Origin: Eucommia ulmoides
Taxonomy: Eukaryota > Streptophyta > Magnoliopsida > Garryales > Eucommiaceae
DNA: 64,000 nucleotides
Direction of reading: 5' to 3'
Assembly (NCBI GenBank): GCA_016647705.1
Contig: CM028336.1
Location: 18,054,880 to 18,118,879 of the forward strand
The notes beneath the pieces are model-generated. The model saw only the letters and a program-made list of their open reading frames with translations. It was not told the DNA's origin and did no database searches. A program made the translations under genes and the position numbers. Of the stretch, positions 16,330-64,000 are shown piece after piece (position 1 is the stretch's first letter; each line of letters opens with the position of its first letter).

Positions 16330-18449
16330 TGTTGATCTTAAGATTTTGATGAACAATTAAGTATTGATATTTTGGTGGAACTAACGGTTTGTTAAGTGTT
16401 TCAGTTAATTAAGTTCTAGTGATGAAGATGCAATGACAAATTATAAATGGATGCTAAATGATAATGTCAAAAATAATGAAGAATTAAGAGCTTGAAAAAA
16501 TTAGGAAAAATAACTTAGGTGAATTTGAACTCTTAATATCCCAATTAGGAACACACACGACACTAAAAGTTTTTATTATTTATGTGTGTTTTGAAAAGAT
16601 GAAATTATTTGCTCCTATGTGTATTTGGAAAACAATATTTATAATTGACTAAAATGGAATTTAAGAAGTTAGTGGAACTCATTTAGAAAAGAAAATAGTT
16701 AAAGGGGTAAAAACGTAAATAAGAATGAGTTAAAAACGAGTTTAGAAAAGAGATCCAGCATGCATAATTCGACTGGTAAGTCAACTGGACAAAACAATAT
16801 GAACTCTCTGTATTTAGTAGTTGACAGGTAGGTCGACCAGTGAAGAGAAGGCGAACTCTCTGAATCTCCAAGTCAACAGATAGGTTGACCGATGAACACA
16901 GCAACTTTGGTTTGGCTAAATCCTAAATCTCGCAGTCGACTGACCGGTCGACTGAGAGCGCTGCTTCAGGATAATGAGGATTCCAAATTCATATCTAAAA
17001 GTAGCCATTTTTTGTTGGAATTTGTGAGAGATTTAAGGGATCTTATGATATTTAAGATATGTTTCATCTATTATTTAAATCCTATTAATTTAGTTCATTA
17101 AGCTTTAAAATTTCTCAATTTAGTACATATAATTGTTTCTATTCTATTTAATTGAGATTGAGAAATATTTGGGGGACTTAATTGAAAGTTTCAAAAGCTA
17201 TAATTAAGTAAATTAAATCAAAATGAAGTCATAATGATATAAGGGGTCTAAGAGAGTAATTAAGTGTCATGACATATGAAAACTAGCCGTTAGAGAGCTG
17301 ATTTATATCCCATATATATAGAACCTGCGTTTTTTCCATATCATAAAAAGAGAGATTAAGAGATCAAGAGATCATATTAAGCTTTTTTAAGAGATATCAT
17401 ACTGAGTTTTTGTGAGAGCTATTCTAAGAGATAATCTTGATAATCATTGGTTGTTAATCATTGCTGCTATCGGATCTAAAGTAACTACGCTTTAATTATT
17501 TTTTTTGGTGGATTCCGGGTGAGATCTTTCCAATTACTTTTTATATTGTATTACTTTTTTAATTTTTGAAAATTGATCTTTAGAAATTGTTTTTTATTTT
17601 TATTGAAGAAAATATTTTATAAACAATTTCTTGAATCAGATTACGTGCTAAATTACATGCTACCCATCTTTTATTAAAAATCAGATTTTGACTATATCAC
17701 ATTTTCTATCACTAGTTTTGGGATGTTAATTGAGTTTTAATTTATCTGGGGTGGTAGAAACTCCGAGTGAGAAAAATTACTTGTCAATTTTTATTGGTAA
17801 GTTGAGTAACGGATTAAATATGGTTGGATGTATTTAATTAAATGGTAACTGGTTTTAGTCTCTTCCTGTAAAGAGATTGAGTTAGTAATTTTTCCTAGAT
17901 AAAATTGATTTGTGTGAATTTTGTAATGGTTCAATCCTTACCGGGTAAAAGGATATTTGAGATTTTGGTGAGGTTTTGATTCTTGAGCCTTAGGTATAAA
18001 AAGAATTAGGTTGTGATTCTCCCTGTAATAAAATTAGGTTATTCTTGAACTTGTAAAAAGTAGAGGTTATTCCTAAGTCTGAGAAAATTTTTTTGTAAAG
18101 GTTGATTCTAAGCCTGTGAAAAGAATCATTGTGATGGTTTAGTTCCTACCTGTAAAGGAATCTTGAATTTAGTGGATGCGAATCTCCGTGGAGCTCGGAG
18201 GACTGGATTAGCCAAGTGTAGCTTAGTGAACCAAGATATATCGGTGTATACTGTATTGTTTATTTTCTTTATTTTATCTTGTGTTGTTTGGGTGTGCACC
18301 TAGAACTTATTACAATTATTCGCTGCTATAAAAATAATAATTAATTTTAGGATAAAATTAATTGTTTGATTTTTGAAGTGTTATTTTTTTCCTGATAATT
18401 TTTTAACAACCAATTCACCCTCTCTCTTAAGTATTTCACTGGGCCAACA
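16330..18449 (+). repeat. Left LTR of the Sirevirus-like element
   Basis: It starts TGTTGATCTTAAGATTTTGA and ends ACTGGGCCAACA beside the PBS. GTCGAC-type motifs lie at about 16768-16955. Tracts of the form CCTGTAAA-AGAAT-GG recur at 17870-18150. Confidence 0.85.
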
Positions 18450-20806: not shown

Positions 20807-22913
20807 TGTTGATCCTAAGATTTTCATGAACAATTAAGTGTTGAGATTTTGGTGAAACTAATGGTTTGTTAAGTGTTTCAGTTTCAGTTAATTAAGTTCC
20901 AGTGATGAAGATGCAATGACAAAATATGAATGGATGTTAAATGATGATGTCAAAGATGATGAAGAATTAAGAGTTTGAAGAAATTAGGAAAAATAATTCT
21001 GGTGAATTTCAACTCTTAATATTCCAATTAGAAACACACACGGTACAAAAAGTTTTTATTATTTATGTGTGTTTTGATAAAATGAAATTATTTGCTCCTA
21101 TGTGTATTTGGAAAAAATATATTTATAATTGATTAAAATAGAATTTAAGAAGTTAGTGGAGCTTATTTAGAAAAGAAAATAGTTAAAGGGGCGAAAATAT
21201 AAATAAGAATGAGTTAAAAATGAGTTTAGAAAAGATATCCAACATGCATAAGTCGACTGGTAAGTCGACCGGACAAAACAGTATGAACTCTGTGTATTTA
21301 GCAGTCAACAAGTAGGTCGACCAGTGAAGAGAAAGCGAACTCTCTGAATCTCCAAGTCGACAGATAGGTCGACCGACGAACGCAACAGCTTTGGCTTGGC
21401 TACATCCGAAATCTAGTAGTCAACTGACCGGTCGATTGAGGATGCTATTTCAGGATAATGAGAATTCCGAATTCATATCTAAAAGTAGTCGTTTTTTGTT
21501 AAGATTTGTGAGAGATTTAAGAGATCTTATGATATTTAAGATATGTTTCATATATTATTTAAATCCTATTAATTTGGTTAATTAAGTTTTAATATTTCTC
21601 AATTTGTACATATAATTGTTTATATTCTATTTAATTGAGATTGAGAAATATTTGGGGGACTTAATTGAAAGTTTTAAAAGTTATAATTAAGTGAATTGAA
21701 CCAAAATGAAGTCATAATGATATAAGGGGTCTAAGAGAGTAATTAAGTGTCATGACATATGAAAACTAACTGTTAGAAAGCTGATTTATATCCCATACAT
21801 ATAGACCTGCTTTTTTTTCATATCATAAAAAGATAGATTAAGAGATCAAGAGATCATATTGAGCTTTTTTAAGAGATATCATACTGAGTTTTTGTGAGAG
21901 TTATTCTAAGAGACAATCATGATAATCATTAGCTGTTAATCATTACTGCTACCAGATTTGAAGTAACTATGCTCTAATTATTTTTTTCAGTGGATTCTAG
22001 ATGAGATTTTTTCAATTACTTTCTATATTGTATTACTTTTTTAATTTTTAAAAATTGATCTTTAGAAATTATTTTTTATTTTTATTGAAGAAAATTTTTA
22101 TAAACAATTTCTTGAATCTGATTACGTAGTAAATTACATGTCACCCATCTTTTGTTAAAAATCAGATTTTGACTATCTCACATTTTCTATCACTAGTTTT
22201 GGGATATTAATTGAGTTTTAATTTATCTGGGGTGGTAAAAACCTCGAGTGAGAAAAATCATTTGTCAATTTTTATTGGTAAGTTGAGTGACGGATTAAAT
22301 ATTGTTGAGTGTATTTAATTAAAAGGTAGCTGGTTTCAGTTTCTTCCTGTAAAAAGATTGAGGTAGTAATTCTTCTTGGATAAAATTGATTTGTGTGAAT
22401 TTTGTAACGATTCAATCCTTACCAGGTAAAATGATATTTGGAGTATTGGTGAGATTTTGATTCTTGAATCTTAGGTATAAAAAAAATTAGGTTGTGATTC
22501 TCCCTATAATAGAATTAGATTATTCTTGAGCCTGTAAAAAGTAAAGGTTATTCCTAAGTCTGAGAAAATAAATTTGTAAATGTTGATTCTGAGCTTGTGA
22601 AAAGAATCATTGTGAAGGTTTGGTTCCTACCTGTAAAGAAATCTTGAATTTAGTGGGTGCGAATCTCCGTGGAGCTCGGATGACTGAATTAACCAAGAGT
22701 AGCTTGGTAAATCAGGATATATCAGTGTGTACTGGATTGTTTATTTCTTTTATTTTATCTTGTATTGTTTGAGTGTGCACCTAGAGCTTATTACACTTAT
22801 CCGCTACTATAAAGATAACAATTAATTTTAAGATAAAATTAATTGTTTAATTTTTGAAGTGTTATTTTTTCTCTAATAATTTTTTTACTACACAATTCAC
22901 CCCCTTTCTTACG

Positions 22914-22920
<7 letters not shown>
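20807..22920 (+). repeat. Right LTR of the Sirevirus-like element
   Basis: It starts TGTTGATCCTAAGATTTTCA and aligns with the left LTR along its whole length. Its last dozen bases run into the TA array. GTCGAC-type motifs lie at 21251-21435. Confidence 0.85.
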
Positions 22921-43930: not shown

Positions 43931-45222
43931 GTTGAACTTTTATATAAAAATGATTTATTAAGTATTTTATGATCCAATTATTTGTGGGATTCAATCTTAA
44001 TTTGGATATTTGAATATATCAATGTATTCTATGTGGTGAGAATACGACTGTAGTATAGTTAATTGTGTAAAACTCATTTAAGAGGTGAATTAAAATTTTC
44101 ATTAAAGTAACCACTTAAAGATGTTGATTCATATGTTGTGTGGGTCATCCCACACTGATAACGAAAGAAGATGAAGAGTCATTAATTAAGACTCTGGTTA
44201 CCTCTTGAAGGAAAATACTCTCAGGTATTGAAATGATATGGACAGAAAGTAGGCTAAACATTAGAAAATAAATAAAGCAACATACGCGGACTGTCGTTGA
44301 GTGATCGTTGCCTGGCCTAGCCAAACTCGGCCTCAGGTCTGAGTCCTAAGTCCTGGGCCAGTGGCTTGTGGCCTTGGGGTCTTAGGGAATGCTTGGGTTA
44401 GACTCGGTATGTTTGGTACATAATCCGAAAGTCCAACCCAAGAAAAGCCAAAAAAGCTTAATTATTTAAGCTTGTAACAACAGAGAGTTACATATTTAGG
44501 GACTCTTCAGGTGTATAACTGTAGAGAGTTACAAACCTAGAAATTCTTTAGATGTATAGTAGTAGAGAGTTACTGTTATCCATTTATTTCCATCTTAAAT
44601 AAGAAATTTGAGACTTCTTCAGTTACTGGTTTTGCGCCCTATAGAAGAGAATGTTTTCTCAACATATAGACGTCAATTTCTTAGCTTGCATTGCATTTCT
44701 TCAAAGAAATTTTTGAGTGTTTTTTGTTGTTCTTGAGAGAGTTCATTATATTTCTTATTCGTTGTGTTTCTAGCTTCCAATGGTTGTACTAGAAGCTATT
44801 TGGTCGTTGTATCCTAAGGGGTAGACACTCATTCAAACCATAGGCACCTTGTAGGGGTGAAATCTACTTTAAGAACTAAATGTCAAACAATTGGCTTGAT
44901 CTTTTCCTGTTATTTCTATTTTTGTTTTGTTCTATAATACAGTAAGTATATTTGATGCGAACCTCACCAATAATTAGTGGGACCCGAGGTCCTTTGATGG
45001 TGCTTGTTGGTTCTCATCAATATTTATTTTTGTTTTAGTCTATATTACAATAATTATCTTGTTTCTGTTTTTCCTTCAATATTGTAATATTAATTTTTTT
45101 CTATCCTTCTATATTGTCATATGTTATCTGGAATATTTCTTCAATAAAAAAATTAGATATGTTTTATCTTTTTTTTTTATATATTTTTAATTAATAATTA
45201 TTTGATTAATTTCTGGACCACA
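43931..45222 (+). repeat. Left LTR of the old Copia
   Basis: It begins near TTGAACTTTTATATAAAAATG-type wording and ends CTGGACCACA. It contains three copies of a 45-bp repeat with GTAACTGTAGAGAGTTAC (about 44476-44575). Confidence 0.75.
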
Positions 45223-45248
45223 ATTAATGAATAATCTTAAAGCAAATT

Positions 45249-46474
45249 TTGAATATTCTTATACTGTTTTGGGTTTTTATTTTCTTTCAGGAAATATGTC
45301 TTCCATATATGTTATTTTTACCTCTTCTACGGCTGCAAATCAAGGTGTTACACCACCTGCTAACAGCGCTTGTTGCTTGTCCTATGTCTACTCTATATAG
45401 AAAAAGTCATAGAAGTTTCATGGAAACGTCTTCAAGAAGATGACAACATAAGATGTTCTTCTACCTAAAAACATTAAACTTGGCAAGATTTTTTTGTGAG
45501 GATGCTCCTACCATGACTGAACAGTCTGACACTCAGACTGTAGCTATTGTTTGCGCATGGAAACACTATGTTCCTATGCAAGAAATACATCTTGAATGGA
45601 CTGAGTAATACACTCTACAATTTGTATTGCTCATTCACGACGACTAAAGAACTATAGCAGTCCCTAGAATAAAAATACAAGACTGAAAATGCTGGGACTA
45701 AGAAAATCATAGTCGGAAGATTTTAGATTGCAAAATGGTGGACTTAAGGACAATCATCAGCCAGACTGAAGTTCTCTAAGTCCTACTGCATGACATTTAT
45801 GTAGAAGAAATTACTCTTAATTAGTCTTGTCAAGTGGCAGTTGTGATTGAGAAGTTGTTATTATCCTGAGGTGACTTCAAGAATTATCTCAAGCACAAAC
45901 GAAAGGAGATGATTCTGAAGACCTTGTTCTCAAACTAAGAATCGAAGAGGAGCATGGAATATATTATAAACGTGAGGGTCATAATTCTATGACGTCGAAA
46001 GACCATGTCATAGAAACTCACAAGAAGAGGAAGCAAAATGAATCAAGCTCAAGCAAAGGAGTTGCGAACAAAAAATTCATGGAAATTGCTATACTTGAGG
46101 CAAGTTGGGACATCGTGTTCAAGATTGCAGGAAAAACATTATACCAAAGGGAAAGAATCCTAAAAATCAGGCTCATGTGACTAAAGTGAAAAAACTTTAT
46201 TGATGAGGTTTCCTAGATGAATTTGTCAGCGATTGTATCTAAAGTCAATCTCATTGATAATCCCAATGAGTAGTATATGGATATTGGTGTTATTTGTCAT
46301 ATATGCTCAGATAAGAAGAAGTTCACCATTTATCATTTAATAGAATTTGGAGATACGCTCTATATGGGAAATTCTTTAACTTCGAAGGTTGAAGGACAAG
46401 GAAAGGTCGTGTTGAAGATGACCTCTGGTAAGGAATTTACTTTGAATAATATGTTGCATGCCGTACGAATCTGA
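45249..46474 (+). pseudogene. Gag and protease remnants of the old Copia
   Basis: Wording of Copia gag occurs in mixed frames, then the protease-associated segment 46277-46474 (MDIGVICHICSDKKKFTIYH, EGQGKVVLKMTSGKEFTLNN). Decayed. Confidence 0.65.
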
Positions 46475-46679
46475 TTTCTGGATCATTTCAGAGTAAAAAA
46501 TGATTCAGTCTAATGTTTGAGTCTGATAAAGTCTTACTTACAAAGAGTGGTGTGTATGTTGGAAAATACTATATGAATCAAGACATTTTCAAGCTCAATG
46601 TTATGACAGTAATCCCAAAGTATAATAATAAAGGCAATACTTCTTTTGCTTATATGATTAAGTCTTTAAATGTGTAGCA

Positions 46680-47760
46680 TGTTTGTTTAGGATATGTTAA
46701 TTATGATATTTTATGTAAATTAATCAATTTGAATTGAATTCCTAAATGTCAAGATAATACAAGTAAAAAATGTGAGACTTGTTTAAACTCAACATTGACT
46801 CAAATTTCTTTTCATTTAATTGAACAAAGAATATAACTTATAGATTTGGTGTATACAGATATTTGTGATTTAAAATTTGTACAAACTAAAGGTGAGAAAT
46901 AGTACTTTGTTACTTTTGTTGATGATTGTACAAGATATTTTTCATGTTTATCTCTTACGAAGAATATAACTTGTAGAGTTAATGCACACAGATATTCGTG
47001 ATTTAAAATTTGTACAAACTAAAAGTGAGAAAAAATATTTTGTTACTTTTGTTGATGAGTGTACAAGATATTTTTCATGTTTATCTCTTACAAAGTAAAG
47101 ATGAAGCATTAAACATGTTTGAACATTATAAGACTGTTGTTTGTCTTTTGGCGAGTTGTGTGCACATGTTATGATTCACCAAATCACAACACCTTATTCA
47201 TCTCAGTAAAATAGATTTATTGAAAGAAATAACAAAGTTTTTTAAAAAAAATGATGAATTCTTTGTTAATAAGTTCTGGTCTACCTCAGAACATGTCGGA
47301 GAAGGCGGTTTAAATAAGTCTCATTATGAATTGTGGAAAGGTAGAAAACCTCCATATTCATACTTAAAAGTGTGGGGTGTCTTGTAAAAGTTATGGTTCC
47401 TGATCCTAAGAAGGTTAAAAAAGGACAAAAAAAATTATTGATTGTGTATTCATTAAATATGCACAAAATAGTAGCACATACGTATTTTTTATTCATAAAT
47501 TAAAAATTGAAAATATGCATGAGAACACAATTATTGAATCGAAAAATGCATCATTCTTTATTAATGTTTTTTTCTGTATAAGACTTATGTTGATTTAAGT
47601 TTTTTAAAGACAACTACCCATACTACCTCTAGTACTTTCCAAGAGTACGAAATTGAACCTAGACACAGTAAAAGGACAAGAGTTTTCAAATGAGCCTCAT
47701 ACTTTTTGGGAGACTATGTCTACACTTGAAGCACTTCTTTGGAGAGAGGTAGTGAATAGT
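46680..47760 (+). pseudogene. Integrase remnant of the old Copia
   Basis: CETC-type finger wording near 46770, YFVTFVDDCTRYF-type core wording near 46900-47090, QQNRFIERN-like wording near 47200, and an HYELWKGRKPPYSYLKVWG stretch near 47325-47385. Decayed. Confidence 0.65.
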
Positions 47761-47810
47761 GAAATTGAATCCATATTACAAAATTATATTTAAGAATTAG
47801 TGGATCTTCC

Positions 47811-49394
47811 TGTTAATCCCGAGATTTTGAAGGACAATTAAATGTTGATATTTTTTGTGGAACTAATGAGTTTGTTGAGTATTTCAGAAAAAAAAAAAAA
47901 AAAAAAAAAAAGAGTTTCATTTAAAAATTGTATCATGAAGAAAATATCAAGGGTGCAAAGATGGATATTGAAGAAATGAAGAATGTTGAAGATCCTGAAG
48001 AAATCAAGTAGTTAAATACTTCGTATCTTTGTGATTGTTAATTGAGAAATATTTCTTGGACTTATTTAAGAATTTTAAAATACATTTTTAAGTGGATTAT
48101 CCCCAAATTGAATGAGATTATTATATGTGTCTTTTAGAGACATATCTTTTGAAAACTAGCCGTTGGAGGGCTTGATATTGGTCTATATATTTAGGCTTGT
48201 AGGATTAAGATGAAATACATCAAGAACATCAGCTTTGAGCTATTCTAAGAGTGATATTTATGTTGAGATTTTTGTGAGAATATATATAAATTCTTGATCT
48301 AAAGCGTTGTTGATTTGACGTCACCAACTTGTGCTATATTGCAATTCTGTTTTAATCTTCGGTGTTTTCTCAATGAGATCTTTTCAAGCTATTATTCCTT
48401 ATTGTGATTTCATATTATTATATTTGTTTGGTTGTTAAGATCTTTAAAATATCAAATTTAAGAGCATAAAAATCTTTTTAAAACGATTTTATGTTTTTAT
48501 CTGATTACGTACTTTATTTTGTGCTACCCACATTTATTTATAATCAGATATTAATTTACCTCACATCGTATCTATCACGTAGTAAATTTTAGAACATTAA
48601 TCGAGTATATATATCTGTTTTGAGATGGTAGAAGCTCATTGTGGAAAAAAACTCATATTTTTGTGTATTTATGCATTTGAGCGGATTAGACACAGTTGGT
48701 CCAGTGTTTGGTCAGGGTAGCTAGGTTTCAATATTTTTTGGTAAAAAGATTAGGGTTTGATTTTATCCTAAGTATTAAAAGGTTAGATTATTCTTTTCCC
48801 TTTAAAAGAACTAGGTTTTGATTCTTCCTGAATTGAATTGAGTAAATTGTGAAGGTTTCATCCTTACCAATGAAAAGAATACTTATGAAAGTTGTGAGGT
48901 TTGATATTTAGTCTGTAAAATAATTAAGTTTGATCTTTAACCTGTAAAATGATTAGGTTTGATCTTCAGGCTGTAAAAGGATTAGGTGGTGATTCTTCCT
49001 ATAACAAACTTAGGTTAGTTTTTAGTCTGGTAAGAAAATAAGGTTCTTCTTTAACCTATGAAAGGGAAAATTGTAAGGGTTTGGTTCCTACCTCATAAAT
49101 GGATCAAGGGTTTAGTAATTACGAACCTTCGTGGAGCTTGGGGGACTGTATTAGGCAAAGCTAACTTGTTGAACCAGGATATATCTTGATGTGTTGTTTC
49201 GTTATTATTTTTATCATATTCTGTTTGGGTGTGCACTTAGAATATAAACACTTATCCGCTGCGTAACGAAGATAATAATTTATTTATGATAAATTGATTA
49301 TTTAATAATATAAGTGTTGAAAATTTTAATTGTTTAAATTTTTATAATTACCCAATTCACCCCTCCCCCTCTTGGGTAGCTCACTAGGCTAACA
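47811..49394 (+). repeat. Solo LTR (Sirevirus-type) inserted in the RT region of the old Copia
   Basis: The segment starts TGTTAATCCCGAGATTTTGA and ends TAGCTCACTAGGCTAACA, aligning at both ends with the LTRs at 16330 and 20807. The flanks CTTCC (47806-47810) and CGTCC (49395-49399) are a near-perfect 5-bp duplication. Copia RT wording (ELVDLP) stops at its left border. An A-run of about 25 lies at 47887-47911. Confidence 0.8.
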
Positions 49395-50815
49395 CGTCCA
49401 TATGGGACGAAACCATTATGATGTAAACGGCTATTTAAGAAAAATATAAAAGTAGATGGATCAATTAATAAATATAAAACAAGACAGCTAAGGTTACAAG
49501 TAAAGAAAGTGTATAGATTATTTTGATACTTATTCACGAGTAACAAGAATTATATTTGTATGTATGTTAATAACAATTATAGCTATATATAATCTAGAGA
49601 AATATCAAATGGATGTTAAGACTACTTTATTGAATGATGAAATAGATGAATAAATCTATATGGAACAACCACAAAGATTTTTGATTCCTGAAAAAGAGAA
49701 TAAAGTATGTAGACTTGTAAAATCGTTGTATGGATTAAAGCACACACTAAAACAATGGCATGAGAAAATTTGACAATGTTATATTGTTAAATAATTCTAA
49801 GATCAATTAATGTGACAAGTATGTCAATATTAAGACAGCAAAATCTTGTTACATTATTGTATGATTATGTGTAGATGACATGTTTTTTATTGGTAATAGT
49901 GATAAGATCATAAAATCTACCAAATAAATGTCAACAAATAAATTTGAGATGAATAATTTGGAAAACGCAGAGGTCATTCTTGGAATTAAAATTTCAAAAA
50001 CATTTGAAAGATTGGTCTTGTCTCAATCTCATTACATTGAGAATATCCTTGTAAAATTAACAAGGATGATTCGGGTATAGTCAGAATACCAGTAGATGTT
50101 ATTCAACATCTTTTTAAGAATACTAGTGAGAGCACATATCGGTTGGATTATTCTCAAATAATTGATAGTTTAATGTACACTATGAATTGTGCAAGACCTG
50201 ATATTGCTTACGTAGTTAGTAAATTAAGCAAGTTTACTAGCAATCCAGGTAGAAAACAATGAAAAACTATAGTGAAGCTTTTGGGATATTTAAGATATAC
50301 TCAAAATTATGGTTTTCATTACATGAGATATCCAGCAGCACTTGAAAGGTATAGTGATGTAAATTGGATATCTGATACTAAAGACACCAAATCCATGAGA
50401 GGATATGTTTTTGTATTAGAAAGAGTTGTTGTATCATGAAAATCCTCTAAGTAAACGTGTATTGTCATATCCACAATGGAATCTAAATTTATAGCTTTAG
50501 ATAAAGCAGGAAAATAAGCAGAGTGACTTCGACACTTGGAAGATATTCTAATGTGGACTAAGTTTGTGTCAGCTATTTGCATGCATTGCGATAGTGAATC
50601 ATCTATTCGAAGAGCACAGAGTAATATGTATAACGATAAGTCTTGACATAAACGTCAAAGGCAAAATATCGTAATGTAGTTATTTTCAAATGGAGTTATC
50701 TTAATTGATTATATTAAGTCAAAAGATGACATTGTGGATCCGCTAACTAAAGGTCTTACATGTGATAAAGTAAACCACTTATCTTTGGGATTGAGCTTAA
50801 ATCCTATTACATAAT
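49395..50815 (+). pseudogene. RT and RNase H remnants of the old Copia
   Basis: RT wording includes YQMDVKTTLLND-like, EQPQRFLIPEKENKVCRLVK and LYGLKHTLKQWHEK. RNase H wording includes GSLMYTMNCARPDIAY-like and [20 protein letters not shown], then the tail before the stop near 50811. Decayed. Confidence 0.75.
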
Positions 50816-51420
50816 AATCATTATAATGAATGCCCAACTTAGTTGACTGAAGATCTCAAGATCTAGGTTCAAAGGGACAACCGAATTATGAAAGTGATTA
50901 TAAGCGTATCACCGAGTCGACAAAATTCTATGACTCATTCCTACGATATAACAATGATATATGCAATATGGTTAAGGATAAGTATGACTTGAATAATTTC
51001 TATATCTTGAAAATTTTCAAGTGGGGTATTGAAGAATACACTTTATAGAAAATCACGTATATAATTAAGAATTGGGTTAGTTTTGGGATAATGAAAAGGT
51101 TAAATTCTCTAGAAGCACTCATGAAGTATCAAGGTGTTCAGGACCAAAATAAACGCAACCATAAAATGGAAAGTATCTAGGAAGCAATTATGTAGCTTCT
51201 ATTGTCTTGATATATACTAAAGGACGAACAGTTTAAGACATCATGTTCACTGTTTGGCTGAGTAAATTCGATAGATTCTTATTAGGAAAGGTTCAAAGCC
51301 AAAAACTATTTGTCCTGATATAGTCTCTTTCTTTTTGAGCTCTTTCTCTCTCTCTCTCTCTTTCTTTTTAGTCTGCATTTAATATGCATGTTCATCTGAT
51401 CAATTTTCATTTATGTAGGG

Positions 51421-52620
51421 GACTCTTATATAAAAATGTTTTTTTGGGTATTTTATGACTCAATTATTTTTGGGATCCAATCTTAATTTAGGACATTTGA
51501 ATATACCAATGTATTCTCCTTAGTGAGGACATGAATGTAGTATATTTATTTGTGTAAAAATCATTTAAGTGGTAAATTAAAATAGTTCATTAAAATACCC
51601 ACTTGAAGGTTTCGATTGATGTGTTGTGTGGGTTATCCTACATTAGCAATAGAAGAAGATGAAGATTCCTTTATCGGGTTACCTCCTGAAGGTAGGTCCT
51701 CTAGGGAATTGAAATCATATGGACATAAAGTAAGTTAAAGATTATAAAATAAATAAAGCCATACGTGAGTGTCGCTGTTGTCGCTTACCGACCGACCGCC
51801 CGACTAGGCCTAGCCGAGCTCGGGCTTAGGTTCGACTGGGTCCTAGGTCCTAGGCGTGGGCTTGGGATTGTGGCTTATGGTTTTGGGGTCTTGGTTTGGA
51901 CTTAATATGTTTTGTACATAATTCAAAAGTCCAAACCAAACAGAGCCTAAAATGCCTAATTGTTCAGCCTTGTAACCACAGAAAGTTACCAACCTAGAGA
52001 CTCTTTTGGTGTGTAACTGTAGAGAGTTAAAAACCTGGAAACTCTTAAGGGGTGTAACTACAGAGAGTTACTGTTGTCAATTTATTGTCATCTTAAATCA
52101 TAAGTTTCAGATATCTTCAATTACTGGTTCTGCTCCATATAAAATGGGAGGCCTTCTCAGCATATAAGCAATCATTCCCAAGATTGCATTGTATTTCTTC
52201 AAAGAAGTTTTTGAGAGTTTGTCATTGTTCTTGAGAGATTTTTAGAGAGTTCAGCATGTTTCTTATTCGTTGTGCTTCTAGTTTCCAGTACCTGCTTGGT
52301 CGTTGTATCCTAAGAGGCAGAAGCTTATTCAAATAGTAAGAACCTAAAGGGAGCAAAATTTGCTTTAAGGACAAATTGTCAAACAATTGCCTTGATCTTT
52401 TCCTGGTATTTTTGTTTCTATTTTGTTCTACAATAAAGTAAGGATTTAAGTTTTTGTTTTAAATTCAATATTGTAATATCAATTTCTTCTATCTTGCTGT
52501 ATTATCATCTATTATCTGAAATGTTTCTATAACAAAGAAATTAGATCTATTTAATCTTTATTTTTTTGTTAATTAATAATTAATTATTTAACTATTGAAA
52601 TAATTTCTAGTTCAAACAAC
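51421..52620 (+). repeat. Right LTR of the old Copia
   Basis: Begins ACTCTTATATAAAAATG after the purine tract, aligns with the left LTR, and carries the same triple repeat at about 51973-52075. Confidence 0.75.
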
Positions 52621-52882: not shown

Positions 52883-52987
52883 TCACTTTACTTCTTCAAT
52901 CTCGTCCAAGGCATAGTTGTTTGTTGAAACGTTGGCGTAGTTAACTTTAGTGAATCGAACCACAACTGGATATCGAGTCTTCGGGTC
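52883..52987 (-). CDS. psaE: psaE last coding exon with stop
   Basis: This 105-nt exon encodes the conserved end of PsaE ([27 protein letters not shown]) and ends with TGA at 52883-52885. The residues after the domain are EVK rather than the EVAA-type ending I recall from Arabidopsis and rice, an ordinary variation at the C-terminus. Confidence 0.93.
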
Positions 52988-53896
52988 CTGGTTAGGCAAC
53001 AACATATACAATATTAGTTGAGAAGCTATACATTTAGGTTGCGTTTGGGTTAATTTAAGGAATGATTTCATTTGGATAAGAGATTTCACTAATTCCGTTT
53101 AGAAAAGTTCTTATTTGGATACTTTGAAGAAGAATTTATAAAATTCATTCATTTATAAAATAGGAGAATAAAAAAAATTGTAAATCTCTTTAAAACACAT
53201 TTTATTTCTAAATCATTTCAAGAAGACATTTGTTATTTTTTATTTTTTTTTAATCTATTTTACTTCACTTCAATTCTATTTTTTATTTTGTAATTGTATG
53301 AATTTCAAAATTCTTTCTTTTCTCTATATATTATATAATGAAATTATATTTATAAAAAATTATATAAAAATTATATTATTAAAATTATATTACTAAAATA
53401 GGTATAATAATTAAATTCTCTATTCTCTCTATATATTATAGAATAAAATTATATTTTTAAAATATATATATAAATAATATTATTAAAATAATTACGTACA
53501 ATTAAAATTATATTTTTATAATTATATTACTAAAATAGGTATAAAAATTGTATTATTATATTACTAATAAAACTTATATTATCAGATATATATTTTTATT
53601 ACTAAAATTTAATTAATTTTAAAATTCTGCGTACAAATACTTGTCAATTTAAGTTATATTATTAAATTATTAAAATAAAAATTATATTATGAGATATATT
53701 TTTATATTTTTTATTATTCATATTTAGTTTAATTTATTAATATAATTAAACTTATGTTTTCTATATTTGTGTTCAATCCTTTCTAAAATCATAGAAAACA
53801 CTTTTGTAGATAGAGACAAGGGGTTTTACCTGATCAACGGCTACAACCGATCCGATGCCTTTGTACCAATACGATTCTTTCCTAAGAATTCTCACC
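52883..53896 (-). CDS. psaE: Photosystem I reaction centre subunit IV (PsaE), last two coding exons
   Basis: PsaE is the small stromal SH3-fold subunit of photosystem I that helps dock ferredoxin and supports cyclic electron flow. It is nuclear-encoded and imported into the chloroplast. Reading leftwards, the exon at 53831-53896 encodes 22 residues ([22 protein letters not shown], here split as [10 protein letters not shown] and [12 protein letters not shown]). The exon at 52883-52987 encodes 34 residues beginning [12 protein letters not shown] and ending [12 protein letters not shown] plus a TGA stop. Together they match nearly all of the conserved PsaE domain. Splice sites are canonical: CAG|GTAAAA after the first of these exons, AACCAG|GACC before the last, and CTTCATAG before VRIL. 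Both exons are phase 0 and have no internal stops. The transit-peptide exon, which should end near a GPKRG-like motif, was not found upstream within the window. That space is taken by a Gypsy and a Copia element. The gene is therefore either split by a first intron of more than 10 kb or truncated. Confidence 0.93.
52988..53830 (-). other. psaE intron between the two visible exons
   Basis: An 843-bp intron with GTAAAA donor and AACCAG acceptor. Much of it (about 53100-53760) is very AT-rich, with short ATATT/TTATA repeats. The part near the acceptor (about 53035-53130) has the wording TTGCGTTTGGGTTAA, reminiscent of a MITE end. I could not find a matching inverted end, so no element is called. 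Confidence 0.85.
53831..53896 (-). CDS. psaE: psaE penultimate coding exon
   Basis: This 66-nt exon carries the start of the SH3-like PsaE domain ([11 protein letters not shown], then SVVAVDQ). It is bounded by an AG acceptor (CTTCATAG on the minus strand, AG at 53897-53898) and a GT donor at 53829-53830. It is in frame with the last exon. Since family members continue N-terminally with a Lys/Arg-rich stretch and a transit peptide, this cannot be the first coding exon. Confidence 0.92.
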
Positions 53897-53898
53897 TA

Positions 53899-54208
53899 TG
53901 AAGCGACATAAACATTGAGTAGTTAATGCAACTTTGGCCCACCACATTTTACTATTTTCGATGAACACCCTAATGTTTCCAAAACGAAAATTACATTAGA
54001 CAAATTTACTATATTAATCCTATTAGTAAAAAATACAAAATATGCTATATATATATATATATATATATAAACTAAATCTATTTCATATTTAAAAGTGATC
54101 AAATAATAATAATTCAACGCGAAAACTAAAATAATGTAAAAAAATTTAACCAATCATTAAGTGCTATGTGTCATCAATTTGGAAAAAAATGTGGTTAATA
54201 TAAAAAAA
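53899..54208 (-). other. 3' end of the intron upstream of the visible psaE exons
   Basis: AT-rich sequence (with a TA run near 54043-54069) between the psaE acceptor site and the start of a Gypsy-type LTR. It reads as the 3' portion of the first psaE intron. No additional exon is visible. Confidence 0.55.
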
Positions 54209-55082
54209 TGTCACGCAATCAAGGTGGGACAATCACTAAGCAATTAACTTTGGACAAGTGCCAATCAAACAATTGACAAGTAGCAAGAAAATGATCAATC
54301 AAATCGCGTCATTTGTTAAACAAGCCCACTTAAGAGAAAATAAATAAATCTCCAATTAAATGGTAATGAATATCTTAATTAGTAACTTTTATTAACATGT
54401 ACACAAGTTAATAAAATTTATTAACAGACCCCTCCACCTCTACAAATAGAGGAGGCTCACAACCAAAGAAAGGGACATACACACAAGTCTCAAAAGAAGA
54501 AGCAATGAAGTTCTGGCAGATTGATAGCACAATCTCCCTTTGACGTTCAAATCAAGCACCCAAGCAATCTTCAAGTTCAAATTGATGATAAAACTAGTAA
54601 ATCTTTATTCACGAAGCTTGGAGATTGATAGCATAAATCTCTCTCCAATGTTTACATCAAGCACCCAATCAATCTTTAAGGTCAAATAGACAATAAAACT
54701 ATTAAATCTCTATGCGCTAAGCCAAGAGATTTATACGAGATATATAATATCTTAAATCCAAAACTCGATGATCTTCATCGACCAAACCAGAGAAGATCAA
54801 TACTACTACAATGGGATCAACCTATAAGGCCATCGGCCGGCACAAAAGTTTTGATCAATTAGTATTCTTCAGTTATTTAGGAAACGATTAATTAATCTCT
54901 CTGATATTAAGCTACTCAAGCCCCCCTGAAGTCAACCATTCAGAGAGACGAATCGAGAATTTTTTACATTATAATTATAGAAAGTATTGGAGATTGTATT
55001 TGCACTTCCCAACATTTAATAAGATAGAATATTTGGCATAGAATTGTTTTTTTCGATTTTCAACACACGAAATTTGTGTGTA
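54209..55082 (+). repeat. Probable left LTR of Tat element 2
   Basis: Starts TGTCACGCAATCAAGG and ends before the PBS-like site. It holds a 104-bp tandem duplication (54519-54727). The wording CTCTACAAATAGAGGAGG (54438-54455) resembles a TATA/start region. Boundaries are uncertain, as no partner copy is visible. Confidence 0.5.
54519..54727. repeat. Tandem duplication, unit about 104 bp, in the Tat-2 LTR
   Basis: GATTGATAGCA-AATCTC, ATCAAGCACCCAA-CAATCTT and GATAAAACTA-TAAATCT recur in the same order at 54519 and 54623. Confidence 0.8.
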
Positions 55083-55297
55083 GAAATTCTGGCACGCGCA
55101 GTGGGACCTATCATCTCAGATATTTTTTCCTTGTATTTGTATTCAAATTCATAAATCAGAGCTGACCACGATGTGTTTGCATGGTCGCATGCAAATCTAA
55201 CCAGACCCAAATATCTCCATGTACTAGTTGTGTATTGATCCGGCTTATCCGATAGTTCGACTGAAGTAAAGAAAGTTCGTGCCCAAAAAGGCAAGCC

Positions 55298-55815
55298 ATG
55301 ATCAAGGAAGAACATAGGAAACTACTTGAGACAAATACAAATCAAAGAAATCAAATTTTCCCCCTGGTTGGACAATGTACTCCTAGTGAAGAAGAAAACA
55401 AAAAGCGCATGTACGTGTACTTCACTAATCTCAACAAAGCCTGTCTAAATATCAATGTTATTGTGGATGCAACTGTCTGCTACAAATCACTTAGGTTTCT
55501 CGATGCCTTTTGGAGGTACAACCAAATAAGTATGTATCATACTAGCAAAGGAAAGACAATATTATCACCGACAAACGACTTTATTGGTATAAGGTAATGC
55601 CCTTCAAATTGAAAAATGTTGAAGCAACATACCAACAATTGGTGAACAAGATGTTCATCGACTTGTTCGAGAAGACAATGGAGGTCTACATTGACGATAT
55701 GATGGTCAAGAGCAAGATAGCCAGCACTCACCTAGCTGACCTACAAGAATATTTTGACGTGCTCAGAAATGTGTGTTCGGGGTCGATGTCAGGAAATTCC
55801 TCAGTCACTTGGTAA
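55298..55815 (+). pseudogene. RT remnant of Tat element 2
   Basis: FTNLNKACLNINVIVDATV, FWRYNQISMYHTSKGKTI, NVEATYQQLVNKMF and EVYIDDMMVKSKIAST are the Gypsy RT palm in the Tat style. Decayed. Confidence 0.85.
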
Positions 55816-56313
55816 CAAGGAAGGGGGGTTGAACCTAGCCTGCAAGAGATAAGGGCAATCTTGAACATGACATCCCCAAGGACAATCAAGGGGGTACAAA
55901 GCCTGACAAGATAAGTGGCGGCTCTAAGTCACTTCAGTCCCAAGTGAGGAAACAAGAGTTTGGAGCAGACATGCAAATGTGAAGAAGCTTTCCAAGAACT
56001 CAAGAAATATATCTTGCAACCACAAATACTTACTACCCTGAAACCCAAGCAGGAAATAATTGTATATTCAATGACGTCGTCTACGGCTGTGAGCTCAGCA
56101 CTCGTAGTTGAAGAGCATGGAATCCAAACGCATGCCTAGTATGTCAACCACGTGCTAAATAGTGTGGAATCACATTACCCCGACTCAAACTGATAGTTTA
56201 TGCCTTGATAATCTCAGCAAGGAAACTCAGCATTACCTCCAAGCTCATCCAATGGCAGTACTGACCAAATAGCCATCGAGGGTGCACCGCCGGAGACTTA
56301 TAGGTGATTACTC

Positions 56314-56727
56314 ATGTGGTCCATCGAACTTGGGGAGTTCTATATCAAATATTGCCTAAGGATAACAATCAAAGCAAAAATGTTGGCCAACTCTTTCTTG
56401 GAATTCACTCTCCTCGAGAAAAGCACCTTGATAGATATGGTAATGGCCCCCAGACCCAACCAACAGGTGACCGATGATTGTATTACTCATGTTGACGGAT
56501 CATCAAACCAGAGTGGTTCGGGGACTGGGTTGGTAATTCGTACCCTTGAGGGTGACATCCTGGAGTATGCCTTGAGATTAGGTTTCAAGGATATAAACAA
56601 CGAGGTTGAGTATAAAGCATTGATCTCTTCATTGAGGATCTTGAAAGAGCTCAGGACGATCGAGGTGGAACTCCATTATGACTCTCTCCTCATATCAAAC
56701 CAAGTAAAACGGAGAATACACAGCTAA
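56314..56727 (+). pseudogene. RNase H remnant of Tat element 2
   Basis: WSIELGEFYIKYCLRITIKA, HVDGSSNQSGSGTGLVIRT and NNEVEYKALISSLRILKEL fit the second (archaeal-type) RNase H of Tat elements. Decayed. Confidence 0.85.
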
Positions 56728-56969
56728 GGAGGCAAAAATGATAGCATACCTTAACAAGTCCAAGCTACTCATGAAAGACTTCTCGAAGGTCACCATCAAA
56801 CAGATCCCAAGAGAGAAAAATAATCATGCAAATTCATTAGCCAACCTAGATCCTGCCTTCAAAACTAAATGGTAGAGGACTGTTCTGGTCGAGCATGTCC
56901 TACGACCAAGCTGTGATGAAGTCAAAGAGGAAGTTACAATGGTGACACACCACCTAGTTGTATGGACCC

Positions 56970-58180
56970 AATTTTTAACTATGTCGACAGTGAAATCCTG
57001 CTCCAACAGAAAAGCAAAGCCAAGAGGGTCCGGTAGTAGTTATCCTGGTATGTGCTAGTACGAGGAGTCTTGTATAAACAATCTTTCATGGAACCATTGC
57101 TCTCTCGCCTACACTCAAATGAAGGCCATTATGTACTCCAGGACATATACGAATGACTCTGTGGTAACCACTCAAGGGGCACAGTCTCTAACCAAAGGCG
57201 TTGAGGCAATGATACTTCTAGCCAACAATCAAAGTTCACGTTCATGATCTGGTGAAAAAGTATGAAAAGGTCAGAGAATCGGGGGGTTGGCCATCAATGT
57301 CTATGCAATTGGACAGTTCTCCATGACCGGGCCATGTCTATCTGCTCAGTGGGAGGTAGACATTCTTGGTTCATTCATGATAGTTATCGCTTAAAAGAAA
57401 TTCTTAATCGTTTAATTCACCAAATATGTTGAGGCCGAGGCCATAGCCAAAATCACCACATGGAAACATATCATTTGTCGATTTGGAGTACGTTAAGCCA
57501 TGATTAGCGACCATAGGACGTAATTTGATTGCAACCTTTTTGACAATTTCTACTTGGGATTAGGCATAAGCCACCATATGTTCACACTGGGTCATCCATA
57601 ATCAAATAGTCAAGTTGAGGTGACCAATTGAACTATCCTACATCCACTAAAAACCCAATTGGATAAATATAAGTCCAAATGGGTTGAGGATCTCCCTTTG
57701 GTCATGTGGCCATATCATACAACTTAAAGGGTTTCAATTGGAGAAACATTATTTGCAATGGCCTACGGTACCAAGGTAGTAATTCTCGTTGATTTGGGCC
57801 TAACATGTCGGGTGGCACACTACGATCTCGACGAGAACCACAACAAACTTGCTCTAAGTTTGGATTTGATAGAGGAGAAATGGGAGTGTGCCCATACACG
57901 ACAAGTAGCCTACAAACGACAGATGGGTCGTTACTAAAGATAAATGTGTCAAGCTACAGGAATTCGTGAAAGGTGACCTAATGCTATGAAAAATTAGTAC
58001 TGCGACACGAGACTGAGCATAAGGCAAACTGGGTACGAACTGAGAGGGGCCATATCCAGTCATTGATGCTATTGGCCTAATACCTACAAACGCGAGACTA
58101 TGGATGGGCAACCGTTGAGAAATCCGTGGAATATGGAACACTTGAAAAAATATTTTCAGTAGGAAAAGTGTGTAAGCTGC
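56970..58180 (+). pseudogene. Integrase region of Tat element 2
   Basis: Fragments of integrase wording occur in several frames. The order and distance after RNase H, and a C-terminal part resembling that of Tat element 1 just before 58180, support the call. Decayed. Confidence 0.6.
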
Positions 58181-60089
58181 ATTGTGTTCCACTTGATAAA
58201 ACATTTATTTCGATTAAACTACTGCAAGTATTAACACACCATCATTCAATGATAACTACATCAACATTCCTTGCTCGGGAAGATGTGTAGGAATGAGTTT
58301 ACGGCAACAATACCGAGACACACTCAACCGACTAGTCGACCACCGCAATTTGACATGCATAGCTCGGTAACAACCTGAAAAACCCTCCTAGTACTCTAAT
58401 TGTAGTTGGGCACAACAAACAAGTTAGGCATACACGAGAAGGAGGCCGAAAAGAAGAGCCTATCGGAGTTTAAGGGTCTTGCTACTCGGCTCAATTTTCT
58501 ACAACCTACTTGGTTTTCTACAATATACACGATGCTACCTACTGTCTCTCAAAACCATGTTTTTTCCTACTACTGTATTGCTTCTACAATTCGATTTTCA
58601 TTTAATCAACAAAAAGCAAACAAGAAAAAGTAGGAGTACTAAAAATCAATTTTTTATATATAGAAAGGGGGAGGGCAATCTCCCCCCTTACAGGAAAAAA
58701 AGGGAGGTGCCTTATATATCTTCACAAAATGAAACGAAAAATGTTTTTTTCTTCTTCTATTGGGAGCTGGAGGGGGTCTGGCTGTTCGATACCATTTCCT
58801 CATCGGTAGACTGGTAGCCATCCAAGCTAGTGTAGTTCGAGAGGATGAGATGAGCTCCTGAATATTCACCTATCAGGCAACACTCTTCGCCTCTACAGCC
58901 ACCCTAGCCTTCTTCTATTTCACCAGCTCGACCCGAAGCTTTGGTACTTTGTCCTCTTCCAGGATTTCAGCCACCGTATTGTAATGATAGGCATTCAGGC
59001 AGACACAGAGGACGCAGAGATCCTCTAATTTCTGAAGACAGTAGAAAGGTCATTCTTCCATCTTCAGTTGTTGGATTAGAACCTCGACTCTTTTTACCTC
59101 GCGGTTCTGCTTGGATCAACACATCTCAACGTCCTTGTGAAGACCCATAGTAGAATATGATAATGAAATCTAAAGATACGGGTGTAGAGAAAAGTATAGA
59201 TGAAAGTTTATCAGAAGAAAGTAAAGAAAAATGAGGAATACAAGGCTATAAATAGATAAATTCCAAGTGAGAAATATTAAGAGACATAAGTATTAAATAT
59301 GAATGACTGATTAGACGGAGAATCTTAAAAGGTTGTCGCAATAAATACAGACAATAAAGACTACCTTGGAAACACACGAACCATCACTCCTGGTGCATGG
59401 TTACCGTGGTGACCTTTGGGATCATCCCAAAACAGGATCGATTTCTCCTAATACCAAGATGTTCTACACTTCTCGATTAGACGGCCCTGAACAACCGAGA
59501 CAAGAAAACATAGTCATGTACTACAAAAGCTCAACACTGATACGACTTTGCCCTAGGTAACCCTCTCGAGTGATCCCCGCCAGACGAAATGGGCTATGCC
59601 CGGCGTAATTGACCTACGCTTGGAATGGAAAAGTCCACTTAGTATTATCTGCCTCGGAGTAAGCCTACCCAGTTAGATAAGACTACTAGTTAGTTGAGAG
59701 GGTCGCCATTCAAAATTTTGTTAAAGATCCATAATTGGAAAAACGACTATGCAAGCTACTTGATATGCATAGAAGACAAAAAAGTAAAGTGCAAACTAGT
59801 AATAAACAAGAATCAAGATAAAGTATAGCACAACGTTTCGTCGTTAAAAGAAAACAGGAACTAAAAAATACAGAAGGAAATGGGGCAAAACAAAACGACT
59901 ATGGGTCATCGCCAAGACCAGGCACAGACTCGTCACTAGACGAATTTAGAAGTGCCTCCCTTAGTGCTTCCTCGGTTGAACCTTGATCCGACACTGGAGC
60001 CTTACTATCCCCAACCCCGAGATATTTGCTAATTTACTATAGGATCATGAGATCATCTGGCTAGGCAGCTGGAGGCCCCAACTGATTAT
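58181..60089. other. Spacer of Tat element 2 between integrase and antisense ORF
   Basis: No gene visible; short ORFs (for example 58479-58817) look fortuitous. It corresponds to the spacer 480-3382 of Tat element 1 in position. Confidence 0.5.
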
Positions 60090-60905
60090 GCTCAGCTTGT
60101 AATGGTTCATAATCGAAGCGAGGGACCCCCAAGAGGTAGATTCCCGATAAGTCAACCTCGGGGTACTTCTCTAGTATCCTAAACTTGGCGTCCTCAAATC
60201 CAACTTCCATGAATTCTGCTTTGATGTCTCTCCTCAGCTGTTGGTAGTCAGCGGTTAGCTTCCAGTCCTAAATAGCCCTCGCTACAACATCCCCCGCTCC
60301 GGCCCTCTCCTCAGCCAATTATGACTCAACTTTCTCCTTGGCGGCCCGCTCCTTGTGAAGGCAAGTCTAAAGCCCCACCTCCACTTCGGAAGATCAGTGG
60401 AGCTCCTGCTCAAGCTCCGCGACCTTTTCCTCGGCCTTTGACGCATTTTTGCCACCTTAGCCGTCTTCTATTCTACCTCCGCTGCCCTCTTCTCTGCATC
60501 TGCTGCCTGGCGTCTGACTTCGGAAGTCTCCATCACTTAGAGCCTCGTCTTACCAACCTCCTTTTCAGCCTTAGCAGCTCAATGTTACTTCTTCCTGAGT
60601 TGGGACTTGGCTTTGGCCCTCTCTTATTCGAGGTTCCCGAGTCGAGTGACATGCCCCTCCACCCCTTCAGCAAGGCGAGAGAGTGGACTGTCATCTATCA
60701 AGAAACAAAAAACAAGGCTTAGCAAATCCTAACAAAAAAAATAAAAAAGCTACAAACGAGTAACAATGTTCATGAATACTTACCTCTACACTTAGTCAGA
60801 TCATACTTTGGTTGCAGTCGTTCACTTGCCCAGCAACCGCCACCTCAAGATCCTGAGGAAGAAACACAGCCTAGGCCCATCTGGCTGCATTTTCTAGACT
60901 AGGCA
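60090..60905 (-). pseudogene. Antisense extra ORF of Tat element 2, coiled coil with an intron
   Basis: On the minus strand a Lys/Glu/Ala-rich coiled-coil stretch (RRQAADAEKRAAEVE, KAEEKVAELEQEL, ERAAKEKVES) leads to an acidic C-terminal end (EVGFEDAKFRILEKYPEVDL). A consensus intron of 89 bp lies at 60695-60783 (GTAAGTATTC to TTTCTTGATAG). The ORF is opposite to the element's own pol genes, beyond integrase, as in the Tat group. Its N-terminal part would lie right of 60909 and is cut off by the Copia element. Decayed. Function unknown. Confidence 0.6.
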
Positions 60906-60909
60906 CTAT

Positions 60910-61010
60910 TGACCTCAGATCTTTTAATGAACTAATTAAGTTGGATGCTTTAAAGAATTAAAGTGTTTATTGAGTATTTCAGATTTTAGTTCCGATACTT
61001 TAACGGAAAA

Positions 61011-61049
<39 letters not shown>

Positions 61050-62638
61050 TAGTTTTATGAAGAAGAATGATAAAGAACGAGATGCAATAAAGAACATTGA
61101 AGATTCTTCTAAAAAATAAATTTTTTATATTACAACGTAAAGAACTCAATTTTTCTTTAAACTCTTAATCCAATCCGATTAAGACCACGCCAATCTGATT
61201 AAGACCACGCACTACACTTGAAATTAATTGAAAATATTTTTTAAGTGGTCATACTTTATAAATTTATGTGAAAATTATTTTCCTAAATACTCGATCAAGA
61301 AATCATTTGAAAATTCTCAAAAATTGAGAAAAAAATCCTAGACGGTCAGCCGCCGAAGCAACCAGTCGACCGATTGATTCAAGATGGCATAAATTTGGGT
61401 TTTAGGCTAAACGGTCGACCGATAAGTTGAATGGCTAATTCAGGGCCACAAACAGTCAAACGACCAATGTTGCAACGACTATAAAACTAATTGTGGAGCC
61501 TAACCGATCGACCGAGTTCTTCTTATTTCAGTTTTGACCAGAACATTTTTCAAAGATCTTCCATCCATTTTTTTAGATTATGAACATTAGAATATTATAT
61601 TTTTATGGAATTTGACTGGTTTTCAAAGATATATCATATATTTTGAAGATCTCATAATTTAGTTCATATTTTTCTTGATTTTGTGATTTATAATGAATAA
61701 ACTCATTCCAATCTTTATTGCTTTTAAATCAAAATACTTTTGCGACTAAATTTGGAGTTTTAAAAGTGTTATTCTTGGTCAAGCACATCTGATTTAAGTC
61801 TTTTATATGTTTATATGGTCTATATGTGTCATTTCTTGTCATATCTTTTGAAAAATAGTTGTTACTGGCAATGTTAAAATTGCCTATATATAGCCTTGCA
61901 AATTTTCATTTAAAATGAATTAAGAATTCAAATTAAGATCAGATTTTAAAGAGAGAGATCATATATTTTCTGATATGCATTTTTTATGAGATTTTTGAAA
62001 AATTCTTGATCGAGAAAAGATTTTTATTTAAAAATTAGGTTTGATTCTACATCGTTGTTATTTATATCTTTCTCAAGAAAATCCTGTTATGATCATTTTA
62101 TTTATATTTGCTTGCTCAAAGTGATTGTTCTCTACGTGATTCATATATAATCTGAATATTTGAGGATGTTATTTGTGTTACGAAAATAGTTTTTATATCT
62201 CAATATCTTGAAAATCTTTTTAAATGATATTTTATGAAAATATGATTGAAAAAGTATATGTGCTTTAATTGCTAAGATTCAAATTTTATATCTCACATAA
62301 TTTCTATTACTAGCTTATCGGAACATTAATTAAGTTAATCCTGAGCCAAAAAAAGATTGTTTTAATGGCTTTAGTTCCTACCTGAAAAAGGGATCAAGTC
62401 TAGTGGATTGAGAATTTCTACGGGTGCTCAAGAGAGTGAACATAGGTAATAGTAGCCTGTCGAACCACTATAAATATGTGTGTCAATTTCTCCACCCCTA
62501 TCGGTTTGATTGTGCACCTCGGTATACATGTTTCCTTCTTAATATCAAGATAATAACTATTTACAGATATTGAAGCAATTTGTTAATTTTTTTCAAATAA
62601 AAATTTACCCCCATCTTGGGTTGATCTTTGGACAAACA
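60910..62638 (+). repeat. Left LTR of the right-edge Sirevirus-like element
   Basis: About 1.73 kb, ending TCTTTGGACAAACA next to the PBS. The left boundary is approximate (TGACCTCAG at 60910). Contains an (AAT)n run at 61009-61050. Confidence 0.7.
61009..61050. repeat. (AAT)n microsatellite
   Basis: About 14 uninterrupted AAT units in the LTR. Confidence 0.95.
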
Positions 62639-62640
62639 AT

Positions 62641-62652
62641 TGGTACTAGAGC
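62641..62652 (+). other. Primer-binding-site region of the right-edge Sirevirus-like element
   Basis: TGGTACTAGAGC, two bases after the LTR end, resembles TGGTATCAGAGC. Confidence 0.75.
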
Positions 62653-62689
62653 GTGATTAGCTTAATAGGCTTCACATCCTAAATAACAC

Positions 62690-64000
62690 AATCACATGAA
62701 ACAACACATGAATACACTAGTTGAGGGAAAATCTATGCACCGCCCTCCTTGTTTCATGGGAGATAACTACATTTTCTTGAAGGCTTGAGTGATTGCTTTC
62801 AAATAGGCTACTAACTATGATGCATGATTATTGATTAAAAATGGTCCTTATGTGCCTTCTATTCATGAAACTCCATGATTATTGATTAAAAATGGTCCTT
62901 ATGTTCCTTCTATTCATGAAACTCCTAAGAAAGATGATAAGTATGACGGGGATGATTTTAAAAAGTTATATATAAAGGCTCAAGATATTAATCTATTATT
63001 CTATAGGATAGATGATAATGAATATAACAAGATATCACGTTGCGCGTCGGCAAAAGAAATGTGGGATACTTTGCAGACTACACACGAGGGGACAAATCAA
63101 ATGAAAGAGTCCAAAATCAATGCTTGGTCCACCAGTTTAAGCTTTTCAAAATGGGCAAAACAGAGACTATCCAAGACATGTACACCAGATTCACCAACAT
63201 CTGCAACAACCTCAGCATGCTTGAAAAGCCGTCTTCAATGCCGAAGAGAGTCTGGAAAATTATGTGGTCCTTCAACAAAGAATGGGAACCTAAGGTGACG
63301 GTCATTGAAGAACTCAGAGATCTTAACAAGTACACTATTGATGAGTTTACTGACAATTTAATGACTCACGGGTCATCTATCCGAGGATATGAAGGACCAA
63401 GTACTAGTAAACGAGGATCCTTGGCGCTTAAAGCTTAGAAAGTTGATAACGATGACGACAGTGATGACATAAGCCTCAACAGTGATCAAGAGTCGAACGT
63501 ACCTCTTATTACAAGAAGTTTCAAGAGGATAACCCGACGTACATTCCGTGGAAAAAGAAACTTCAATATGAATAATGTTGAATGAAATGGGGCATTTCCA
63601 ATCAGAATGTCTTGATCCGAAAAAGGAGAAAAAGTACAACAACAAAAGGAAATTAAAGGATGGCAAGAAGAAATCCATGAAAACAGCGTAGGCTGATTCA
63701 TATTTGAGTAGCTTCAAAACATCAATCAGTAATGAATAATCAACGATGCTTGCCCTAATGGCTATTGGGGATGAGTTGTCCAAATGTTCTAGTTCTTGTC
63801 CTTAAATTTTGATGAATTATTTAACATTTACCAAGAGCTATTACATGATTATAAAAATCAGTGTTTTAAAATTAGTTCACTACAAAGTATGGTTGTTTCA
63901 TTAAACAAACAGATTGAAAAATATGAGGCTAAAAACACTTCTCTTAAAAATAAAGTTTCAAAAAACATATCATTAGCTTTAGAAAAGGAAAACAATGATT
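62690..64000 (+). pseudogene. Gag remnant of the right-edge Sirevirus-like element
   Basis: UBN2-type gag wording occurs (HQFKLFKMGKTETIQDMYTR, FTNICNNLSMLEKP, NKYTIDEFTDNLMTHGSSI). A knuckle-like stretch near 63590 and a coiled coil (near 63880-64000) similar to that at 18817 in the other Sirevirus-like copy follow. Decayed. Confidence 0.75.

Follow-up and report, generated by a model that had tools for sequence, protein, structure and literature searches.

Here, we propose that a psaE gene of Eucommia ulmoides, which reaches beyond the right-hand end of a 64-kb stretch of the genome (C12:18054880-18118879; hereafter the window), is very probably complete, as are two other nuclear psaE genes of this plant, and has a retroelement-rich 22-kb first intron that is presumed to be transcribed and spliced. 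On paper, the C12 gene is structurally complete, with a giant first intron rich in retroelements. The assembly from which the window is taken comprises 946,670,599 bases in 391 contigs. The original prediction, made from the letters of the window, had found two clean last exons of psaE and offered two accounts of the first: a giant intron, with exon 1 at least 10 kb away, or a truncated copy that has lost it.

Gene structure

The last two exons lie on the minus strand of the window and are as clean as the original prediction held. Exon 3 (52883..52987, 105 nt) encodes DPKTRYP...EIEEVK and the stop codon; it is separated by an AT-rich GT-AG intron (intron 2, 52988..53829, 842 bp) from exon 2 (53830..53895, 66 nt). 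Both exons have AG acceptors, the donor reads CAG/GTAAAA, and a single open frame runs through the two. A phmmer search with the 56 residues that they encode finds a solved PsaE chain at E = 1.7e-31, and 55 of the 56 are shared, site by site, with at least one of eight other PsaE chains, a set for tolerated residues chosen post hoc as 8 of 13 distinct chains. The sole unmatched residue, T35, falls at a variable site, where other chains have A, D or N.

As had also been foreseen, no transit-peptide exon precedes them before the window ends. Searches of the window by tblastn with two full-length PsaE probes found no exon 1, and a GPKRG-like motif matched there seven times, but never upstream of exon 2 on the minus strand. 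We thus rejected an exon 1 concealed within the window.

Exon 1 was found beyond position 64000, again on the minus strand of C12 (C12:18130817-18131089; 75938-76210 when the numbering of the window is extended). It is a transit-type exon of 273 nt and 91 residues (MATCNMASAAAGF...KAAKPPPIGPKRGAK), running from the ATG to GPKRGAK, the kind of end that had been suggested as a search target, and followed by a GT donor (GTATTG). Its leader was recognised by likeness, with tblastn E-values of 5e-22 against a generic plant PsaE leader and 2e-16 against the leader of a paralog on contig C14. Joined, the three exons (273, 66 and 105 nt) form an unbroken 444-nt frame of 147 residues and a stop, and the predicted precursor matches PF02427 with E = 2e-30 over profile positions 2-60 of 60. 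The introns measure 22,042 and 842 bp, both phase-0 GT-AG; intron 1 occupies 53896..64000 of the window and runs on to C12:18130816. The gene takes up 23.3 kb between ATG and stop, less than 2% of it coding, and the 29 kb examined around it contain no N.

The minimum of 10 kb that had been given for the distance to exon 1 is right, and the complete structure bears out the giant-intron account as far as the gene's architecture goes. A retrocopy was rejected since the introns are retained. None of the marks of a truncated or processed pseudogene (a missing exon, lost introns or a disabled frame) was found: three exons, two introns, start, stop and frame are all present.

Contents of the first intron

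A decayed Gypsy followed by a Copia had been reported upstream of the exons, and the retroelements are real; their names, Tat for the Gypsy and Sirevirus-like for the Copia, are labels that we presume to be right. The Gypsy is a pol fragment on the plus strand (55204..58156) with reverse transcriptase (RT) and RNase H and, judged by eye, an integrase region. It has 20 stops and 11 frame changes in 723 aligned codons, against 8 stops and 4 frame changes in the comparator, and its order is matched by that of a minus-strand relative at 6.5-3.4 kb, with which it is collinear. At 3413-9338 of the window, another Gypsy of this kind was observed on the minus strand, whose open pieces are longer than those of the intronic copy. 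The Copia is represented by a gag remnant on the plus strand (62823..64000; Retrotran_gag_2, E = 4.6e-11), whose likeness to a relative on C12 extends past the window to 64478 in the extended numbering. A second Copia, at about 71.3-75.6 kb in that numbering, has gag, gag-pre-integrase, SH3-like and weak RT matches, and its 3' end, placed by eye, is some 70 bp from the exon 1 donor. Near 68.4 kb there is also an RT piece without a Pfam match, which we take to be like a long interspersed nuclear element.

Two further stretches of the intron were searched against the genome, and both are multi-copy; the match counts that follow include the query itself and are lower bounds. The first is an old dispersed repeat, read as resembling a long terminal repeat (LTR), at 54138..54950, where the right-hand figure is the limit of the search (54050-54950). 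It starts about 240 bp from exon 2 and has 62 matches, several of which begin at query position 89-90; the top-scoring other copy is 73% identical, and short pieces reach at most 89% (45 bp). The second, at 58600..59800 (the limits of the searched interval), has 41 matches, with 69% identity in the top-scoring other copy, 66-71% in long copies and at most 85% in short pieces.

In all, the identified elements cover about half of the intron's length, and retroelement domains within it include RT, RNase H, gag and gag-pre-integrase. A search for paired LTRs within the intron found none, and no insertion date can therefore be given for its elements. A scan of open reading frames (ORFs) for a nested host gene (10 of the 44 listed for 50-64 kb and 9 of the 25 listed beyond the window) gave Pfam matches above or near the cut-offs to parts of retroelements only, and tRNA and Rfam scans found nothing. 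ORFs on both strands were seen at 60061-60722 of the window, among them a 68-residue minus-strand ORF without a Pfam match; this is possibly a retroelement accessory frame.

Paralogs and selection

A PsaE profile search of the genome gave five exon-sized places, all on C5, C12 and C14, and an exon 1 probe taken from C14 found C14 itself, C12 (E = 0.001) and C5 (E = 0.13), together with a weak C3 hit (E = 9.7). Among the places listed, C5, C12 and C14 each have a single exon 1 and a single set of exons 2 and 3. The C5 gene is open, with exons of 213, 66 and 102 nt and introns of 5,053 and 130 bp; the C14 gene (C14:54671589-54672617) is also open, with exons of 228 and 168 nt and a single intron of 633 bp. 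First introns therefore measure 22,042 bp on C12, 5,053 bp on C5 and 633 bp on C14, and no similarity was found among the three. The K/V intron junction is present in all three copies and the Q/D junction in two, C14 being without it; this second intron (VDQ/DPKT), common to C5 and C12, was either lost in C14 or gained by the other two. A scan of viral contigs for psaE relatives gave 11 pattern matches, none of which was confirmed.

The synonymous and nonsynonymous comparison that had been suggested was made by the NG86 method over 66 of the 147 codons, those that are conserved, with the leader part of exon 1 left out. Between C12 and C5 there are 33 synonymous changes in 46 sites and 6 nonsynonymous changes in 152 (a ratio of about 0.017, with synonymous divergence near saturation). 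C12 and C14 differ by 40 synonymous and 6 nonsynonymous changes, and C5 and C14 by 33 and 5. Since synonymous sites are at or near saturation, the duplications are old, and the few nonsynonymous changes among all three copies point to purifying selection on each. It had been argued that an ordinary second copy elsewhere would favour truncation of the first. Two more open genes do exist; the C12 copy is complete all the same.

Did constraint on psaE outlast the insertions? We simulated neutral change, setting transitions to half of all substitutions and indels to 0.1 per substitution. Exons 2 and 3, scored as surviving when both were intact with at most one untolerated residue, did so in 6% of runs at a divergence (d) of 0.03 and in 0.5% at 0.05. 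The whole gene, scored as an open frame that can be spliced, survived in 17% of runs at d = 0.03, 5.9% at 0.05, 0.3% at 0.10 and none of 3000 at 0.15. From the open comparator frame, a mean of 16.9 stops in 723 codons arose at d = 0.3, where the intronic Gypsy has 20. The exons on both sides of this decayed Gypsy are undecayed, which argues that constraint probably outlasted its insertion. The simplest reading is that psaE probably stayed under selection while intron 1 decayed.

Expression and alternative explanations

If the C12 gene works as we propose, RNA polymerase II would transcribe the full 23.3 kb from ATG to stop and the spliceosome would excise the 22-kb intron; the precursor would be imported into plastids, and PsaE would join the stromal ridge of photosystem I (PSI). 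The intron would have grown by insertions that were tolerated since they left the splice signals alone.

Evidence on how the gene might be transcribed comes from two promoter-like words, CTATCCAC and ACGTGG, which were chosen post hoc from a side-by-side view of the C12 and C14 upstream regions. In C14 they stand at -199 and -159. As a pair, 12-52 bases apart, they occur twice in the 560,004 bases of the fetched regions (both strands), both times upstream of psaE, and the stretches just upstream of the pair align weakly between C12 and C14 (63%, E = 3.6e-4). C5 has neither word within 700 bp upstream, so that the promoter comparison rests on two copies.

Several observations weigh against a fully active C12 gene. 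The same words lie at -1091 and -1063 in C12, a displacement of about 0.9 kb that puts them 1.1 kb from the ATG, with a TATAAA at -1012. The C12 leader looks some 0.9 kb longer than that of C14, partly through an element that measures about 416 bp and lies between -770 and -354 (C12:18131439-18131879 region), an interval set by the ends of its genome matches. The first look at the genome gave 1,848 candidates for this interval, and the 40 that were scored yielded 55 matches; from its copy number and short imperfect inverted ends, we read it as a putative miniature inverted-repeat transposable element (MITE). The 980 nt before the C12 start hold 13 upstream ATGs, whereas there are none in the last 150 nt of C14 or of C5, and translation from C12 would suffer unless transcription began nearer the ATG or a leader intron were removed. 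The open genes on C5 and C14 could carry the function. In Arabidopsis, an intron of GL2 of more than 20 kb, bearing a T-DNA, was never rescued, and the authors consider that it might exceed the capacity for transcription or splicing (PMC5364540); the same source describes a 17-kb T-DNA-bearing intron of OPR3 that was spliced. Finally, the intronic Gypsy may have gathered stops before its arrival, and no insertion there can be dated.

Could the C12 gene then be complete on paper and silent, or nearly so, its expression recently cut by insertions in leader and intron while C5 and C14 carry the function? The shifted promoter words, the MITE-like element, the upstream ATGs and the two open paralogs all fit this explanation, as does a finding from grapevine, where genes with large introns had 46.0% singletons among expressed sequence tags against 32.8% (PMC3058033). 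We nevertheless regard it as unlikely, and keep a small place for an intact but poorly expressed gene because the leader features threaten translation. Start, stop, frame and every splice dinucleotide of C12 are intact, and the nonsynonymous counts do not single it out (6 against C5 and 6 against C14, with 5 between these two). By the simulations, any loss of constraint must be recent, and TATA-like words nearer the ATG, at -227 and -63, could serve a later start.

It is very improbable that the gene is an artefact in which unlinked psaE halves were misjoined within repeats. The intron is repeat-rich and a single assembly was examined, but the stretch has no N, and no half is left over: the PsaE profile places only C5, C12 and C14, to which the exon 1 probe adds just the weak C3 match (E = 9.7).

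A truncated copy, in which exons 2 and 3 stand alone and the exon at 18131 kb is a leftover of another psaE, would account for the 22-kb gap but is hardly credible, as the gene structure contradicts this branch of the original prediction: C12 lists each of the three exons once, their order, strand and phase are correct, and neither flank of the gap shows decay.

Comparison with known systems

Arabidopsis also has a duplicated nuclear gene of this family, PSAE-1 (At4g28750) and PSAE-2 (At2g20260), for subunit IV of PSI, and plants lacking both isoforms still make some PSI, if little (PMC11449065). Shared as well is the transit-type leader, which ends in PPPIGPKRG in the sequence of a solved chain. 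Unlike Arabidopsis, E. ulmoides has three copies, one of them with a 22-kb first intron.

Giant introns filled with repeats are already known in plants, and the unusual part is the host gene. The grapevine introns expanded by transposable elements are likewise large (3-100 kb analysed) and consist mostly of repeats, including Copia and Gypsy LTR elements; among 39 compared genes, the large introns were mostly 5' (PMC3058033). That paper emphasises recent insertions, whereas the elements of the psaE intron look old and decayed, and the string 'photosynthe' does not occur in its main text. In a limited search of the open-licence literature, neither a report of a giant psaE intron nor published psaE intron sizes were found.

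Long retroelements or T-DNA also lie in introns of transcribed Arabidopsis genes that depend on IBM2 and EDM2, where heterochromatin marks and these factors counter premature 3' end processing at intronic retroelements (PMC4417168; PMC5364540). In Arabidopsis this dependence was measured with mutants; for psaE it is suggested by analogy. That output of C12 PsaE might hinge on machinery of this kind, reading through 22 kb of silenced retroelements, is a speculative proposal that we think unlikely to hold.

Within the E. ulmoides genome, 22 kb is the longest among the few photosynthesis-gene introns examined here, and other long ones exist. A photosynthesis-related gene at C13:20981317-20994997, which we take to be Lhcb7-like, has inferred introns of about 8.1 and 5.1 kb, shorter than that of psaE. 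PsaL and two PsaG/K-type matches hold their domain in one unbroken frame, and about 0.9 kb separates the two pieces of PsaH. Many of the 27 Lhc-type matches in the genome carry their complete domain undivided; paired Lhc pieces are separated by about 1.5 kb (C16), 0.6 kb (C7) and 0.5 kb (C4:4491381). Five equal-scoring Lhc-type matches within 170 kb (C13:41279913-41446752) are likely a gene cluster.

Neighbouring features

Downstream of psaE, an old LTR element (43936..52591) ends about 290 bp from the stop codon. It is bounded by diverged repeats, at 43936-45209 and 51422-52591, which are about 75% identical and which we read as an LTR pair; its class (Copia) and plus strand were assigned by eye from an RT-like ORF at 50041-50262. 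Elsewhere in the window, 16330-18437 and 20807-22919 form a direct repeat of about 2.1 kb with 90% identity, which may be an LTR pair or else have arisen by segmental duplication.

Implications

According to a hypothesis quoted in the grapevine paper, long introns carry an energy cost in transcription (PMC3058033). If so, we would expect a short, highly expressed photosynthesis gene to keep short introns. The three open psaE genes, with first introns of 0.6, 5 and 22 kb, thus offer a natural series for the cost of intron length and of intronic retroelements. Annotation that halts at long gaps would mislabel the complete C12 psaE as a fragment. Should dependence of the IBM2/EDM2 type prove true, the control of one psaE isoform out of three would be epigenetic and not purely by light, which would provide the plant with a conditional form of PsaE.

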